NCBI GenBank assembly: GCA_002841695.1
Contig: PHAN01000004.1
Location: 1 to 64,000, forward strand
Source: Elusimicrobia bacterium HGW-Elusimicrobia-1
GTDB taxonomy: Bacteria; Elusimicrobiota; Endomicrobiia; PHAN01
Length of the DNA stretch: 64,000 nt
Reading direction: 5' to 3'
Positions 47,619 through 54,194 of this stretch are shown piece after piece (positions within the stretch are counted from its first letter, which is position 1; every line of letters begins with the position of its first letter). The position numbers and the translations under genes are program-made. The notes below the pieces were generated by a model. The model worked only from the letters and a program-made list of their open reading frames with translations, made no database searches and had not been told where the DNA came from.

Positions 47619-47637
47619 TTTATTTGATACGAACAGT

Positions 47638-47666
47638 TTGACTTTTTAATCCGTATTTTGTTTAAT
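47638..47666 (+). promoter_or_regulatory. Promoter of pilB
   Basis: TTGACT (47638-47643), 17 bp, TTTAAT (47661-47666); about 57 nt upstream of the pilB ATG. Confidence 0.65.
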
Positions 47667-47722
47667 AACCACTCGTCGTAAGCCGCACAAATTCCTGTCG
47701 CTTGCAGCCGGAGAGTAAAAAA

Positions 47723-49435
47723 ATGTCCGGAAGAAGAAAGACAGTCAAAGAAATCCTCCTCGAAAAGAAGCTGATCAACGAGGAGCAGCTCGCTCAGGCG
47801 CTCGCCGAAGCCAAAAAAACCAACCAGCCGCTGGAACAGGCCGTGGCCCGTCTGGGCTTCATAGACCGGCTGTCCCTGCTTAAAACCCTCTCTATCGAGT
47901 GGGGCGTAAAATCGATGGATCTTGAAGCCATCGAAATCGACCCCGAAGTCGTCAAAATCATCCCCGAACAACTCGCCCGCCGCCACCGCGCCGTTCCTTT
48001 TATCAAAGAAGAAGAATTTCTTTGCGTCGCAATGGCCGACCCCAAAGATCTTTTTGCCGTAGAAGACATACAACTCAGAACAAATATAAGCGTGCAGGTG
48101 TATCTGGCTCTTCCCGACGACATCGCCAAATGCCTCGACAAGGCCTACGGTATAGGCGAAAGCGAAGTCGTAAAAAAACTTCTGAGCGACCTGGATAAAG
48201 GCACCGATGGCGAACTTGATTTCACTCCCACCCAGTCGCAGGAACAGGCCGACATCTCCGACGTGGACGCCACGGCGCCCGAAGTCGAGAAACTCGTCAA
48301 CGCCATAATAATGGAAGCGCTCTCCCGCAAGTGTTCCGACATACACATAGAGCCGCTGGAGAAAAAGTTCATCGTAAGATACCGCGTCGACGGAGTCCTT
48401 ACCGAATGGGATCACGTGATACCCAACGCGTACAAAAACGCCCTCATCGCAAAACTTAAAATAATGACCAACCAGATGGACATAACCGAGCGTCGCCGTC
48501 CTCAGGACGGGCGCATACAGGTTATGGCCAAGGGCAACCCCATAGAGTTCCGCGTCAACATTCTGCCCACGGTGTTCGGCGAGTCGTGCGTTATGCGCAT
48601 ACTCGACCGCTCGTCGGTGCAGGTTGATCTGGTAAAACTCGGTTTTCTGCCGGATACGTTCGAGAGATTCAAAAATCTCCTGGCAAAACCCTACGGGCTT
48701 ATACTCGTTTGCGGCCCTACCGGTTCGGGTAAATCCACCACGCTTTACGCCGCGCTCAATTCCATCAACGAGCCGGACACAAAAATACTCACCGCCGAAA
48801 ACCCCGTCGAATACAATCTCGACGGCATTATACAGGTCAACGTTATTCAGGACATAGGTTTCGACTTTTCCGCCGCGCTCAGGGCGTTTTTAAGACAGGA
48901 TCCCGACGTCATAATGGTCGGTGAAATCAGAGACAAAGAAACCGCTCAGATAGCTATGGAAGCGGCTATGACGGGACACTTAGTTTTTTCCACGATTCAC
49001 ACCAACGACGCGCCCTCCGCCGTGGCCCGACTGCACGAAATGGACATACCTTCGTTTCTTATCGGCTCGTCGATAGAAGGCGTGCTGGCGCAGCGTCTTA
49101 TACGGCGTTTGTGCAAGTGCAAACAACCGGCGCCGCTTGAAGATAAATACATAGAGCTTTACCAAAAATACAACATAGATGTAAAAGGCGCGACTTTCTT
49201 CAGGCCGGTGGGATGCGACGTCTGCCGCAAAACCGGATATAAAGGCCGTCTCGGCATTCACGAACTCCTTCTTATGGACGAGGAAATACGCAGAATGCTG
49301 CTCACCGAGGTTGCGTCCGGACCCATAAGAGACCTTGCCGTCAAGCGCGGAATGAGATTGATGTTCGCCGACGGCCTGATAAAAGTGGCGCAGGGACACA
49401 GCACTATCGAGGAACTTCTGGCGTCGGTGCAGTAA
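47723..49435 (+). CDS. pilB: Type IV pilus / type II secretion assembly ATPase (PilB/GspE)
   Basis: A 570-residue hexameric motor ATPase. It has an N-terminal T2SSE-N/MshEN-type domain (about 5-140), an N2 domain, then Walker A GPTGSGKST (near 330), the Asp box, Walker B DPDVIMVGEIRD and the His box STIHTNDAPSA. A zinc-binding tetracysteine (CKC near 465 and CDVC near 494) is present. MshEN domains bind cyclic di-GMP in some family members, which fits the HD-GYP gene next door, although the RLG start of that motif is not conserved here. ATG 47723 has GGAGAG upstream. No pilT or pilC is visible. Confidence 0.93.
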   Translation: MSGRRKTVKEILLEKKLINEEQLAQALAEAKKTNQPLEQAVARLGFIDRLSLLKTLSIEWGVKSMDLEAIEIDPEVVKIIPEQLARRHRAVPFIKEEEFLCVAMADPKDLFAVEDIQLRTNISVQVYLALPDDIAKCLDKAYGIGESEVVKKLLSDLDKGTDGELDFTPTQSQEQADISDVDATAPEVEKLVNAIIMEALSRKCSDIHIEPLEKKFIVRYRVDGVLTEWDHVIPNAYKNALIAKLKIMTNQMDITERRRPQDGRIQVMAKGNPIEFRVNILPTVFGESCVMRILDRSSVQVDLVKLGFLPDTFERFKNLLAKPYGLILVCGPTGSGKSTTLYAALNSINEPDTKILTAENPVEYNLDGIIQVNVIQDIGFDFSAALRAFLRQDPDVIMVGEIRDKETAQIAMEAAMTGHLVFSTIHTNDAPSAVARLHEMDIPSFLIGSSIEGVLAQRLIRRLCKCKQPAPLEDKYIELYQKYNIDVKGATFFRPVGCDVCRKTGYKGRLGIHELLLMDEEIRRMLLTEVASGPIRDLAVKRGMRLMFADGLIKVAQGHSTIEELLASVQ

Positions 49436-49447
49436 TCCGCTAAACCA

Positions 49448-50503
49448 ATGACACATCATAACAACAGCGAACTATTTAAGAACATACTCGGCATCGCGAG
49501 GAATCTCACGACCACTCTCGACGTGGATATTCTTCTTAAAAAAATAAGCGCTCTGGCCGAGGAAAAACTCGACTCCGAAGCGTCCGCCATTATGCTTCTT
49601 GACGACGACGGAAAAAATCTGTCGTTTAAGGTCGCGGGCGGAACCAAAGGCGGAGTGATACAGAGGATGAAAGTGCCCGTCGGACAGGGCATAGCCGGTT
49701 CCGTGGCCGCCGAGAAAAAACCCACCATAGTCAACGACGTTTCCAAAGACCCGCGATTTACCGGCGTTCAGGACAAATCGAGCGGTTTTCAGACGAAGAA
49801 AATCCTCTGCGTGCCGATGATGATAGAAAGCGACCTCATCGGAATAGTCGAAGTGCTCAACAAAAAAGAGGGCGATTACACCGACGACGACAGAGAAGTC
49901 CTCGAATCGCTGGCGTCGATGGCCGCCGTCACCATAAACAATGCCAAAAACGCCGAGGAACAGCGCAATTTCTTCGTCAACATACTCGAAGTCCTGGTAG
50001 CCGCAATCGAGTCGCGCGACACAAAACTTGCGGGACACAATATGCGGGTCACCCAGATAGCCACGGCGCTCGGCCGCCACATGGGGCTCGCCGGAAAAGA
50101 GTACAAGGATCTTTATTATGGCGCGATGCTGCACGACATAGGAATTCTTTTCGCCAAGGGCTCCGACGGAATCGTAGTTTCCGGCGGGTCGCCGGGCGAT
50201 GACGACGCGCATCCGTCCGCGGGCGCCAATATGCTTGATCCGATAAATCTTCTTAAAGGCGCGGCCCGCATAATACGGCACCATCACGAGAATTTCGACG
50301 GCACCGGCCGCCCCGACGGCCTGGCCGGCGAAGCCATCCCGACGGGCGCCAGGATAGTCCACATTGCCGAAACCGTCGACGAGATGCGCACAAACGGCAT
50401 GGACGCTTCCGCCATCAACCGGATGCTTTCAATGGGCAAAGACATACGTTTCGATCCGAAGATCGTCGACGTTTACATAAACGAAATATCGAACCGCGAA
50501 TAG
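49448..50503 (+). CDS. GAF / HD-GYP-like protein
   Basis: A soluble 351-residue protein: GAF (about 15-165) and an HD-GYP-type domain (about 180-345) with MLHDIGIL (near 229) and RHHHENFDGTGRPDGL. The canonical HDIGK lysine is replaced (HDIGI), and HHHENFDGTGRP stands for the usual HHE-G-GYP, so it may be a variant phosphodiesterase or a sensor. It starts 12 bp after pilB and probably tunes pilus activity through cyclic di-GMP. Confidence 0.85.
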   Translation: MTHHNNSELFKNILGIARNLTTTLDVDILLKKISALAEEKLDSEASAIMLLDDDGKNLSFKVAGGTKGGVIQRMKVPVGQGIAGSVAAEKKPTIVNDVSKDPRFTGVQDKSSGFQTKKILCVPMMIESDLIGIVEVLNKKEGDYTDDDREVLESLASMAAVTINNAKNAEEQRNFFVNILEVLVAAIESRDTKLAGHNMRVTQIATALGRHMGLAGKEYKDLYYGAMLHDIGILFAKGSDGIVVSGGSPGDDDAHPSAGANMLDPINLLKGAARIIRHHHENFDGTGRPDGLAGEAIPTGARIVHIAETVDEMRTNGMDASAINRMLSMGKDIRFDPKIVDVYINEISNRE

Positions 50504-50567
50504 CCGCGCGCACGGCGTCTTTCGACGCGTCGGCGGCAATCTTTTGCGCAACCCCCGCCGGTTTTCT

Positions 50568-51410
50568 ATGAGAATCGTTCCAAACCGACTTATACAATCG
50601 ACCGTCGAGCGACTCAGCCGGAGCATGAATCTTTATCTTCCGCCCGATGTCCTTGCCGCCCTTATCCGCGCCCGTCGCGCCGAAAAAAAACCTTCGGCCC
50701 GCAATATCCTCGACGTCATCATTGAAAACGCCGACTGCGCCCTCAGGACAGGCGCCGCGCTCTGCCAGGACACCGGAACCGTGGAAGCGTATATCGACGT
50801 GGGCGACAACGCGGCGGTTTCCGGCGGCTCCATAGAGTCCGCCGTCGAAAAGGGAGTGCGCGCCGCGTATCTGAAAAACGGATTCCGCGCCTCGATTGTC
50901 TCCGACCCCATCGAACGCAAAAATACTCTCGACAACACGCCCGTTTCGTTCTATTTTACGCGGTCGCGCGGCAGCCGCATCAAAATCTCCCTGATGGCCA
51001 AGGGCGGCGGCTCCGAAAACGTAAGCGCCGTAAAGTTTATTCCGCCGTCGGGGGGATGGGACGCCGTCGGCGAATTTATTCTTGATACCGTCAGAAAAAA
51101 AGCGCCTTACGCCTGCGCGCCGGTTATCGTAAGCGCCGCGGTGGGCGGGGGTTTCGCCTCGGCTCCTCTTGCAGCTAAAAAAGCGTTATTTCGTAAAATC
51201 GGCGACAGGAATCGTTCGGCCGTTTACGCCGCGCGGGAAAGAAAACTTCTGAAAAAAATAAATTCGACAGGCATCGGTCCAATGGGACAGGGCGGTTCCA
51301 CGACGGCTTTGGACGTTTTTCTGACGCCGCTGCCGTCTCATATCGCAACTTTGGCGTGTGCCGTGGCCGTGCAGTGCCATTCGATGAGACGCGCGTCGGC
51401 GGTAATTTAA
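50568..51410 (+). CDS. Class I fumarase / L-tartrate dehydratase alpha-subunit homologue
   Basis: About 280 residues matching the alpha (N-terminal) half of iron-sulfur fumarases. Three cysteines placed to hold the [4Fe-4S] cluster are visible: LCQDTGT, YACAPVIV and VQCHSMRRASA. Two-subunit enzymes need a beta subunit, usually the next gene; none is seen here. ATG 50568 (MRIVPNRL) is preferred over the TTG upstream. The role in the TCA or a fermentation branch depends on finding the partner. Confidence 0.85.
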   Translation: MRIVPNRLIQSTVERLSRSMNLYLPPDVLAALIRARRAEKKPSARNILDVIIENADCALRTGAALCQDTGTVEAYIDVGDNAAVSGGSIESAVEKGVRAAYLKNGFRASIVSDPIERKNTLDNTPVSFYFTRSRGSRIKISLMAKGGGSENVSAVKFIPPSGGWDAVGEFILDTVRKKAPYACAPVIVSAAVGGGFASAPLAAKKALFRKIGDRNRSAVYAARERKLLKKINSTGIGPMGQGGSTTALDVFLTPLPSHIATLACAVAVQCHSMRRASAVI

Positions 51411-51442
51411 GAAAATCCGCCTGCCTTTGTCGCAAAGATATA

Positions 51443-52630
51443 ATGAAAATTCTGATAATAGATTCCGATAAAATGATGCGCGACGTCCTCCTGAAGGCGC
51501 TGTCTTCCGCGGTTGTGTTTTCTCCGTCGGAAGCCGACGATATCGAAGACGGCGCATCTCTTGCGGCTTCCATTTTGCCCGACTTTGTGCTGGTAGACAT
51601 GGACGCCATCGCCGATGACCCTGCGGCCGGAGTGGCGCGGCTCAAAGCGGCTTCTCCGTCGGCGGGCATAGCGGTGATATCGGGGATGGGCGTCGACGAA
51701 AACGCCGTGCGCGCGGCTCTTGCGGCGGGCGCGTCGAACCTTTCAAAGCCGTTCCGGATGGAGCAGCTCAAACTTATCGTGGGCATCGACGGCTCCTCGC
51801 CGAGCGCGCCCGAGTCCGCCGCCGGAGCGCGAGGAAAGCCCGCGCGCGAAGGCGTGTCGCCGTCGCGCCGGAAGAATATTTTGCTCGGCGCCGCCGCTTT
51901 GGCTGTCTCGGCCGGGCTGATATTCGCCGCGCTTAAAATTTTGTCGCCGTCGGCGCTGCCGCCCGCTTCTTTCGACGTTGAATCCCAAAACATTTCTTAT
52001 CTGGCCTGTTCCGGCGGACGGCTCTACGTTACGGACTGGCTCGAACAGGGCGTTTACATATATTCGATTCCGAAATCCGCGGCAGAAAAAAATCTGCTTC
52101 CGGCCGGCGTTTACAAGAAAAATGATTTTCAGCCGACGGCGGCATCCGCGTTTGGCTCGGAACTCTGGGTGGCGGATTCCCTGCAGGGACTGTTCGTGCG
52201 TTATAAAATAGCCGCTGGCGGAAATTCGATACTTCCCGACAAAAACTTTCGTTCGCCGTCCACTTCTCCGTCGGGGATACTTGCCGAAAAAGACGCCGTA
52301 TGGAGCTATGATTTCAACACCAGAAAACTTTATAAGCACACCGCGGCCGATATGAGCGTTGCGGCGGTTTACGATTTGCCCATAGAAACGCCCTGCGGCA
52401 TGGCGCGTCTTTCCGGACTTTTTTACGTGGGCGACACCCGCACGGGACGCATAGTCGCGCTTAATCCGCGCGATATGACCATAGCCCTTGTCGCCGAGCC
52501 GCGTGAATATTCCGGCGGCAAAGAAAAGATGGTGGGACTTTGCGCGGATGCGGTAAACATCTGGACTGCGTCCGAGAGCGGCAGGATATTCCGCCACGAC
52601 CCGTCGCGCCTATCGGGAGAACTTAAATAA
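51443..52630 (+). CDS. Receiver domain - transmembrane helix - beta-propeller-like protein
   Basis: A 395-residue protein in three parts. Residues 1-115 form a receiver domain with Asp7/Asp9, phospho-acceptor Asp52 (VLVDMD), Ser80 and Lys102 (LSKPF). A linker with SRRK (141-144) leads into a single membrane helix (about 146-167). Residues 175-395 form a repeated Trp/Tyr/Gly-rich region resembling NHL or SMP-30-type propeller blades (SGGRLYVTDWLEQGVYIY, GSELWVADSLQGLFVRY and so on). The positive-inside rule puts the receiver in the cytoplasm and the propeller outside. ATG 51443; the longer frame lies in the fumarase gene. Confidence 0.8.
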   Translation: MKILIIDSDKMMRDVLLKALSSAVVFSPSEADDIEDGASLAASILPDFVLVDMDAIADDPAAGVARLKAASPSAGIAVISGMGVDENAVRAALAAGASNLSKPFRMEQLKLIVGIDGSSPSAPESAAGARGKPAREGVSPSRRKNILLGAAALAVSAGLIFAALKILSPSALPPASFDVESQNISYLACSGGRLYVTDWLEQGVYIYSIPKSAAEKNLLPAGVYKKNDFQPTAASAFGSELWVADSLQGLFVRYKIAAGGNSILPDKNFRSPSTSPSGILAEKDAVWSYDFNTRKLYKHTAADMSVAAVYDLPIETPCGMARLSGLFYVGDTRTGRIVALNPRDMTIALVAEPREYSGGKEKMVGLCADAVNIWTASESGRIFRHDPSRLSGELK

Positions 52631-52637
52631 TAAATTA

Positions 52638-52657
52638 ACGAGACGTCCCCGTCTCGT
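52638..52657. repeat. Short perfect hairpin upstream of the carboxyltransferase gene
   Basis: ACGAGACG-TCCC-CGTCTCGT: 8-bp stem and 4-nt loop with no T run. Either a dispersed palindrome or a leader structure. Confidence 0.7.
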
Positions 52658-52670
52658 AAACGGAAAAATT

Positions 52671-54194
52671 ATGAACACGCAAAAAAGACAAGAACTAAAA
52701 ATTCGCCGCGCCGAAGCGGAAGCCATGGGCGGCGCCGCCGCCGTCGAAAAACAGAAAAAGGGCGGGAAACTGACCGCCCGCGAGCGGCTTGCCGAACTTT
52801 TCGACAAGGATTCTTTCGTCGAAACCGGCGCGCACGTGCGTCATCGCTCCACGGATTTCGGCCTCGATAAAAAAGTTATTCCGGCCGACGGAGTCGTAAC
52901 CGGTTTCGGCGCTATCGCCGGCCGCAAAGTCGCGGCGTTTGCCCAGGATTTTACCTCGTCCGGCGGTTCTCTGGGCGAAATGCACGCCGCCAAGATAACC
53001 AAAATAATGGATTTCGCGCTGGCCGCGGGAATACCTCTTATAGGCATTAACGATTCCGGCGGCGCGCGAATTCAGGAAGGCATCAAAGCCCTCGCGGGTT
53101 ACGGCGAAATATTTTTGCGCAATACGCGCGCGTCGGGCGTGATACCTCAGATATCGGTGATCCTGGGGCCCTGCGCCGGCGGAGCGGTATATTCTCCCGC
53201 GCTTACGGATTTTGTTTTTACCGTCGACAAGGTCTCCAAAATGTTTATTACGGGGCCCGAAGTGATAAAGACGGTGTTGGGGGAGGAAATATCGATGGAA
53301 GACCTGGGCGGAGCCCTTGTTCAGAACGACACAAGCGGAAACGCGCATTTCTTCGCCTCCACGGAAAAAGAGTGTTTCGCGCAGGTGCGCGAGCTTCTGT
53401 CATATCTGTCCGATGTCCCTGCGCCGTCCGCCGGAGCGTCCGCTGAAATTTCAGGGATTGTCCCCGCCGACCCCAAAAAACCCTACGACGTCCGCGACCT
53501 TATAGCGGCCGTGGCCGACGGCGGGAAATTCCTGGAAGTCCAGAAGCATTTCGCCGCCAATATTGTCGTCGGCTTCGCCCGTCTCGACGGCAAGTCCGTC
53601 GGAGTTATAGCCAATCAGCCGAAAGTCCTGGCCGGCGTTCTCGACGTGGATTCGTCCGACAAAGCCGCAAGATTCATAAGATTCTGCGACGCCTTCGGCA
53701 TACCTCTGGTTACGCTCGTCGATATGCCCGGCTATCTGCCCGGCGTCGACCAGGAACACGCGGGCGTAATCCGTCACGGCGCGAAAATGCTCTACGCCTA
53801 TTCCGAGGCCACCGTAGCGAAACTCACCGTGATACTCCGCAAGGCCTACGGCGGCGGATACATAGCGATGTGCTCGCGCCATCTGGGAGCCGATTTCGTG
53901 TTCGCCTATCCGACGGCGGAAATCGCCGTTATGGGGCCTCTGGGCGCGGCCAACATTATTTTCAAAAAAGAAATAGAATCGTCGGCCGACCCCGAAAAAA
54001 CCAGACAGGAAAAGATGAAAGAATACGCCGACAAGTTCGCCTCGCCGTACGTGGCCGCCGCGCTCGGATACGTCGACGATGTGATATACCCCGAGGAGAC
54101 GAGGGAAAAACTCATCGCCGCGCTGTCGACACTGAAAAATAAAAAGACCGCGCCGTCTCCCCGTCCGCGCAAGCACGGCAACATACCGCTATGA
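52671..54194 (+). CDS. Acyl-CoA carboxyltransferase subunit (PccB / MmdA family)
   Basis: A 507-residue crotonase-fold carboxyltransferase that moves CO2 between carboxybiotin and an acyl-CoA such as propionyl-CoA/methylmalonyl-CoA. The family blocks KLTARERLAELFDKDSF, GSLGEMHAAKI, DSGGARIQEGI, GPCAGGAVYSPALTDF and GGGYIAMCS are intact. With the following biotin carrier it could be part of a carboxylase, a decarboxylase or a transcarboxylase. Neither a biotin carboxylase nor a membrane decarboxylase beta subunit is in the window. Stop overlaps the carrier gene. Confidence 0.92.
   Translation: MNTQKRQELKIRRAEAEAMGGAAAVEKQKKGGKLTARERLAELFDKDSFVETGAHVRHRSTDFGLDKKVIPADGVVTGFGAIAGRKVAAFAQDFTSSGGSLGEMHAAKITKIMDFALAAGIPLIGINDSGGARIQEGIKALAGYGEIFLRNTRASGVIPQISVILGPCAGGAVYSPALTDFVFTVDKVSKMFITGPEVIKTVLGEEISMEDLGGALVQNDTSGNAHFFASTEKECFAQVRELLSYLSDVPAPSAGASAEISGIVPADPKKPYDVRDLIAAVADGGKFLEVQKHFAANIVVGFARLDGKSVGVIANQPKVLAGVLDVDSSDKAARFIRFCDAFGIPLVTLVDMPGYLPGVDQEHAGVIRHGAKMLYAYSEATVAKLTVILRKAYGGGYIAMCSRHLGADFVFAYPTAEIAVMGPLGAANIIFKKEIESSADPEKTRQEKMKEYADKFASPYVAAALGYVDDVIYPEETREKLIAALSTLKNKKTAPSPRPRKHGNIPL

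Follow-up and report, generated by a model that had tools for sequence, protein, structure and literature searches.

The gene examined here lies in a 64,000-nucleotide stretch (the window) at the start of contig PHAN01000004.1 of Elusimicrobia bacterium HGW-Elusimicrobia-1, and joins a response-regulator receiver domain through one membrane helix to a beta-propeller. An initial annotation, made from the sequence without database searches, had proposed this domain order in a single chain at 51443-52630, and the open reading frame (ORF), its coordinates and the order of its parts are indeed as described. The features of the gene are as follows.

51443..52630, + strand: coding sequence of 395 amino acids, stop included; receiver, linker, transmembrane helix, five-bladed propeller
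51443..51781, + strand: receiver domain, residues 1-113 (Pfam Response_reg, AlphaFold2 fold, pocket residues)
51782..51877, + strand: linker, residues 114-145, predicted disordered and fast evolving (predicted local distance difference test, pLDDT, <50 at 115-145)
51878..51943, + strand: single transmembrane helix, residues 146-167 (hydropathy, charge count, modelled helix 150-167, substitution ratio)
51956..52612, + strand: five-bladed beta-propeller, residues 172-390, predicted extracytoplasmic (AlphaFold2, Foldseek, substitution ratio)

A receiver, a membrane helix and a propeller in one chain

The N-terminal part matches Pfam Response_reg (PF00072) over residues 3-111 (E=2.7e-7; 31.2 bits against a cut-off of 30.2), and the AlphaFold2 model, built on a 10-sequence alignment, gives the alternating beta-alpha receiver fold at residues 1-112. 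Its pocket holds Asp7 (51461-51463), the phospho-acceptor Asp52 (51596-51598), Ser80 and Lys102 (51746-51748), and Asp52 and Lys102 are invariant across our homologue alignment A1. The receiver had been called complete, which is right for the fold, Asp52 and Lys102, but it is not fully canonical: Ser8 (51464-51466) replaces the second Mg-binding acid, so that the window gene reads Asp7-Ser8-Asp9 whereas nearly all other homologues carry D-D-E. The same D-S-D occurs in a relative from the same genus (L045). An in-frame GTG at 51356 would lengthen the window protein by 29 residues, but L045 begins at the ATG that matches the start given above.

The protein has one hydrophobic segment (residues 146-164, mean Kyte-Doolittle hydropathy, KD, of 2.42), preceded by the motif SRRK. 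Five lysines or arginines fall in the 15 residues before the helix and one after it, which argues for an N-in/C-out orientation and would place the propeller outside the cytoplasm, as a prediction of its topology in cells. The model leaves the linker disordered (about 115-148), places a helix at 150-167 and does contain the anticipated propeller, with 21 strands at 175-385 (pLDDT about 90). Five sequence repeats, each some 45 residues long and with an LW/YVxD-type motif, make the propeller five-bladed. Its best Foldseek matches in the PDB are glutaminyl cyclases (3nol, 3nok and 3mbr, E about 1e-13); the nearest solved fold is the five-bladed type I enzyme 3nol (TM-score 0.72 on the target, E=3e-13), which is about 10% identical to the window propeller and does not imply catalysis. 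A profile search matched designed Pizza propellers, Vgb lyase and LRP propellers. The modelled fold is thus secure and implies no enzymatic role. We rejected catalytic activity as a glutaminyl cyclase, Vgb lyase or SGL, because these similarities are at the level of the fold or below threshold.

The same-genus relative (L045; JASEHK010000090.1, Endomicrobiia bacterium) carries the same ORF intact, at 66% identity, within about 6 kb collinear with window positions 47636-53562 at 77% DNA identity. Between the two copies, the ratio of non-synonymous to synonymous substitution rates (dN/dS) is 0.17 in the receiver and 0.10 in the propeller, and it reaches 0.44 in the linker and 0.66 in the helix, values that are rough because synonymous sites are near saturation (Nei-Gojobori with Jukes-Cantor correction). 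Receiver and propeller are both under purifying selection, while linker and helix are nearly unconstrained, a pattern that favours a tether over a precise conformational rod. One might suspect a frameshift or assembly error fusing two genes, or a chance ORF. We rejected this as extremely improbable: no frameshift and no other point in its favour was found, and it is contradicted by intact full-length homologues in many genomes, by selection on both halves and by the confident fold. Nor did we find any homologue with the receiver part split off as a gene of its own.

A family of tethered regulators beside histidine kinases

Protein and profile searches recovered full-length homologues in the window's own class and beyond it, from at least 12 families of Elusimicrobiota, the named relatives being Elusimicrobia or Endomicrobiia records. 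The initial annotation knew of no standard family with this domain order. The window gene is not unique, however, and is, as far as sequence can tell, a member of a phylum-wide family of predicted membrane-tethered response regulators. An alignment-based scan of contigs found full-length relatives in Elusimicrobiota only, other matches covering just the receiver; its patterns were receiver-derived, so absence from other phyla is unproven. The same kind of scan with the single window protein as query found no relatives.

We analysed the surroundings of 52 distinct full-length sequences, for which counts are not phylogenetically independent. Neighbouring genes were called greedily as the longest ORFs, so that a few starts or neighbours may be wrong, and several contigs are short. 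In 41 of the 52, the next gene upstream, on the same strand, encodes a histidine kinase, and it commonly overlaps the regulator gene or lies within 20 bp of it (many at -7 to +20 bp). The kinase is thus missing from the chain and not from the system, and the suggestion of a kinase-free pathway finds no support. None of these adjacent kinases has a confident transmembrane segment, although three short ones have one marginal stretch each (mean KD 1.61-1.75). Their lengths range from 217 to more than 2,200 residues; in the long ones a coiled coil precedes the kinase, which is C-terminal. Where a kinase gene is adjacent, the receiver nearly always has D-D-E, Asp52, Ser/Thr80 and Lys102, and the H-box histidine is present in most of the kinases checked (L141 has asparagine there). 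We regard the feature as a variant of two-component signalling and not as a new kind of system.

Six loci (L098, L100, L103, L104, L107 and L128) encode histidine kinases of about 1,600-2,400 residues that are mostly coiled coil with a C-terminal kinase and lack a transmembrane segment where checked; most lie directly upstream of a tethered regulator.

In a sister group, a kinase-like part and the regulator occur in one protein of about 690 residues. Its first 282 residues correspond to the coiled coil and H-box hairpin of the kinases (hhalign E=2e-23), and what follows matches receiver, transmembrane helix and propeller (E=1.8e-61). The AlphaFold2 model of the C-terminal 445 residues runs from a helical hairpin through a (beta-alpha)5 fold and a long helix to a five-bladed propeller. 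These fusions have lost the catalytic ATPase and the phosphosites, and their receiver is degenerate. Other relatives have a kinase without the histidine, with either a degenerate partner receiver or tetratricopeptide repeats (TPRs) in its place (L032, L039, L040); two of these three share neighbours and represent one lineage, so they are not independent. The fused and substituted types are listed here.

L033:2684-4735 (contig G000:C11 of the window's own genome, G000), L038, L041, L046, L047: single-chain fusions of kinase coiled coil and hairpin, degenerate receiver, transmembrane helix and propeller
L010, L011, L012, L015, L017, L023, L039:11424-12518: TPRs in the receiver's place, followed by a transmembrane helix and a propeller

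The fusion is strong evidence that kinase and tethered regulator form a complex, and that this complex can still be of use when phosphotransfer is gone.

Direction of signalling and partners at the envelope

Two-component systems normally read from the outside to the inside, with a kinase in the membrane and a soluble regulator. From the conserved architecture, the kinase pairing and the kinase-receiver-propeller fusion we infer phosphotransfer in the opposite setting: an inverted, inside-out module, with the kinase in the cytoplasm and its substrate, the tethered regulator, presenting an output domain to the periplasm. We give this proposal an even chance of being correct. The adjacent gene would supply a soluble histidine kinase, often a coiled-coil one, that phosphorylates the cytoplasmic receiver, and phosphorylation or kinase docking would alter the oligomeric state, so that the chain dimerises or clusters without any rigid push through the membrane. 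A long, disordered linker and a helix under little constraint make clustering or docking more likely than such a push. The rearranged propellers outside would then change their engagement of a periplasmic partner, most plausibly an assembly of envelope or surface proteins.

Candidates for this partner come from the surroundings of the homologues. Many relatives stand in a row with a LysM-bearing PorV/PorP-like barrel (PorV_fam/PorP_SprF) and a CHU_C-tailed FN3 protein, and such genes flank most of the fused types examined. In the window's genome, SprA_N scored above its cut-off in a 1701-aa frame, with neighbours (G000:C15:5819-6730, - strand), and genome-wide there are 10 CHU_C and 30 PorV-family matches, none of them beside the window gene. 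A search for GldM/PorM gave no match in this genome, and the control set was equally without a match. These data suggest an expanded, putative type IX-like surface secretion system in this genome and its relatives.

The type IX system of Porphyromonas gingivalis offers two analogies, by which the propeller may dock on a barrel and cargo complex from the periplasmic side. The first is PorX, a CheY-type receiver protein tied to an envelope secretion machine through its contact with PorL in the inner membrane (PMC5445135). PorX is soluble and its kinase PorY membrane-bound, whereas in the Elusimicrobiota family it is the kinase that is soluble and the regulator that sits in the membrane, with a predicted periplasmic output. 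PorE, which combines TPRs with a propeller, binds PorP, and PorP binds a type B C-terminal domain (CTD) protein (PMC9143113); similarly, the Elusimicrobiota propeller genes adjoin those for LysM barrels and CHU_C proteins. Yet PorE, a periplasmic lipoprotein associated with the outer membrane, has a peptidoglycan-binding domain of its own, while in the Elusimicrobiota the LysM domain is on the barrel and the propeller is tethered to the inner membrane, with a receiver, TPRs or a kinase-like part on the cytoplasmic side. Neither Pfam nor the AlphaFold2 model shows an OmpA-like domain in the window protein, which has an N-terminal receiver and transmembrane helix instead and is not of the PorE type.

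Several observations weigh against inside-out control of surface proteins. Within four genes, PorV-type barrels are found in only 19 of the 52 homologues and FN3/CHU_C genes in 11, and in one Endomicrobiia subgroup the regulator has a second setting, behind CheY, CheD, CheC and PilM-like genes. The window copy itself has no kinase gene beside it, in the window or in the contig stretches read; it carries the Ser8 substitution; and its lineage, within an Endomicrobiia group (99/99), sits on a very long branch (2.18). Finally, the propeller could be a sensor instead.

This last possibility is the main rival. The propeller would sense a periplasmic ligand or partner and cluster the chain, and the receiver would serve as a phosphate sink, an allosteric regulator or an anchor recruiting the soluble kinase to the envelope. 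Ligand binding is common among propellers, the fusions fit equally well, and kinases without a confident transmembrane segment or any obvious sensor beyond the coiled coil could profit from a sensing membrane anchor. We nevertheless think it unlikely, since conservation of the receiver phosphosite throughout the family is what a phosphorylated output would show, and most loci have no DNA-binding output visible downstream. Between the two directions that the initial annotation had offered, inside-out signalling is thus judged more likely.

The copy in the window and known systems

The genes around the window copy are on the same strand, and the order of ATPase, GAF-HD-GYP protein, fumarase and receiver-propeller is kept in the genus. 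The last line of the list gives gene clusters near tethered regulators at other loci.

47702..49435, + strand: MshEN-T2SSE ATPase of the type IV pilus or type II secretion type (Pfam; same strand and order in the related genome)
49448..50503, + strand: GAF and HD-GYP-type protein, possible cyclic di-GMP (c-di-GMP) phosphodiesterase (Pfam HD_5, GAF)
50544..51410, + strand: Fumerase-family fumarate hydratase (Pfam PF05681, E=1.5e-82), ending 33 bp upstream of the window gene
52671..54194, + strand: acyl-CoA carboxylase carboxyltransferase-like gene, 41 bp downstream (so named by inspection of the sequence alone; 5' part collinear with L045)
L036:14324-19901, L037:1329-7687, L044:12662-16495: clusters of CheY, CheD, CheC and PilM/FtsA-like ATPase genes near a regulator (Pfam on L044; homologous genes in L036 and L037)

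The ATPase and, 13 bp on, the GAF-HD-GYP gene (47702-50503) look like a possible c-di-GMP-controlled pilus or secretion pair. The fumarate hydratase gene sits among signalling genes, with no beta-subunit gene noted alongside, although none was searched for. In L036 and L037 the CheY-CheD-CheC-PilM-like genes are directly in line with the tethered regulator.

These settings raise another explanation, in which the window gene serves the upstream ATPase and HD-GYP protein, and its relatives the CheY-CheD-CheC-PilM clusters, in a type IV pilus, c-di-GMP or chemotaxis-like pathway. The conserved gene order in the genus and the CheD, CheC and PilM-like neighbours in L044, with their homologues in L036 and L037, speak for such a link, but a metabolic gene intervenes in the window and kinase neighbours dominate elsewhere, and we consider it improbable.

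The window copy is best described as a divergent orphan of a paired family, judged by its residues and neighbours. Its phosphorylation is plausible and not assured, and less certain than that of the family at large. With its neighbouring kinase and one Mg-binding acid lost in this genus, the copy may be driven by a kinase encoded elsewhere, by docking, or only weakly by phosphorylation. Alternatively, its receiver may be degenerating into a structural part of a phosphorylation-independent scaffold that holds an envelope complex together across the membrane. Ser8, the orphan status, the long branch and the nearly unconstrained linker and helix would suit a scaffold, as would L031, L032 and L033, degenerate relatives from this genome in which the propeller persists. 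Yet both genomes of the genus retain Asp7, Asp52, Ser80 and Lys102, and purifying selection acts on the receiver (the dN/dS of 0.17 given above), which makes the scaffold an unlikely explanation.

Proteins that join cytoplasmic signalling to a periplasmic domain in one chain are familiar from hybrid two-component proteins and ToxR/CadC-type regulators, which have kinase or DNA-binding domains in the cytoplasm; the window protein has neither. Inside-out control of surface proteins has a functional precedent in LapD, where a cytoplasmic input crosses the membrane to a periplasmic output controlling surface adhesion (PMC3032553, PMC3032545). The comparison concerns its working only, since LapD reads c-di-GMP through degenerate GGDEF/EAL domains, whereas the Elusimicrobiota family would use a receiver as input and a propeller as output; the window protein has no Pfam match to HAMP, GGDEF or EAL and is not LapD-type. 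Among archaeal response regulators, MetOD3 is described, in the accessible part of one account, as a membrane-anchored output domain, a rare published case on a receiver, and no propeller is described there (PMC5847659). A receiver with a membrane-anchored output is thus not wholly without precedent. Our literature search found no paper on 'membrane-bound response regulator', a 2015 domain survey that included one Elusimicrobia genome does not mention transmembrane regulators, and the few papers matched on Elusimicrobiota did not report such a type IX-like link.

More broadly, a reversed two-component system could be ancestral in the Elusimicrobiota, with soluble kinases of coiled-coil type, some longer than 2,000 residues, phosphorylating tethered regulators, and with periplasmic propellers controlling type IX-like secretion or anchoring of surface proteins, some lineages having later been frozen into single-chain scaffolds without phosphotransfer; we regard this scenario as possible, if on balance doubtful. 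The gene pairs are small and self-contained, which makes phosphotransfer and partner binding directly testable. The polarity looks inverted, in that the kinase is soluble, the regulator is bound to the membrane and the output would lie in the periplasm, and the arrangement is conserved across the phylum. If the proposal is true, these bacteria would control their envelope post-translationally from the inside out, by phosphotransfer linked to a type IX-like surface system.
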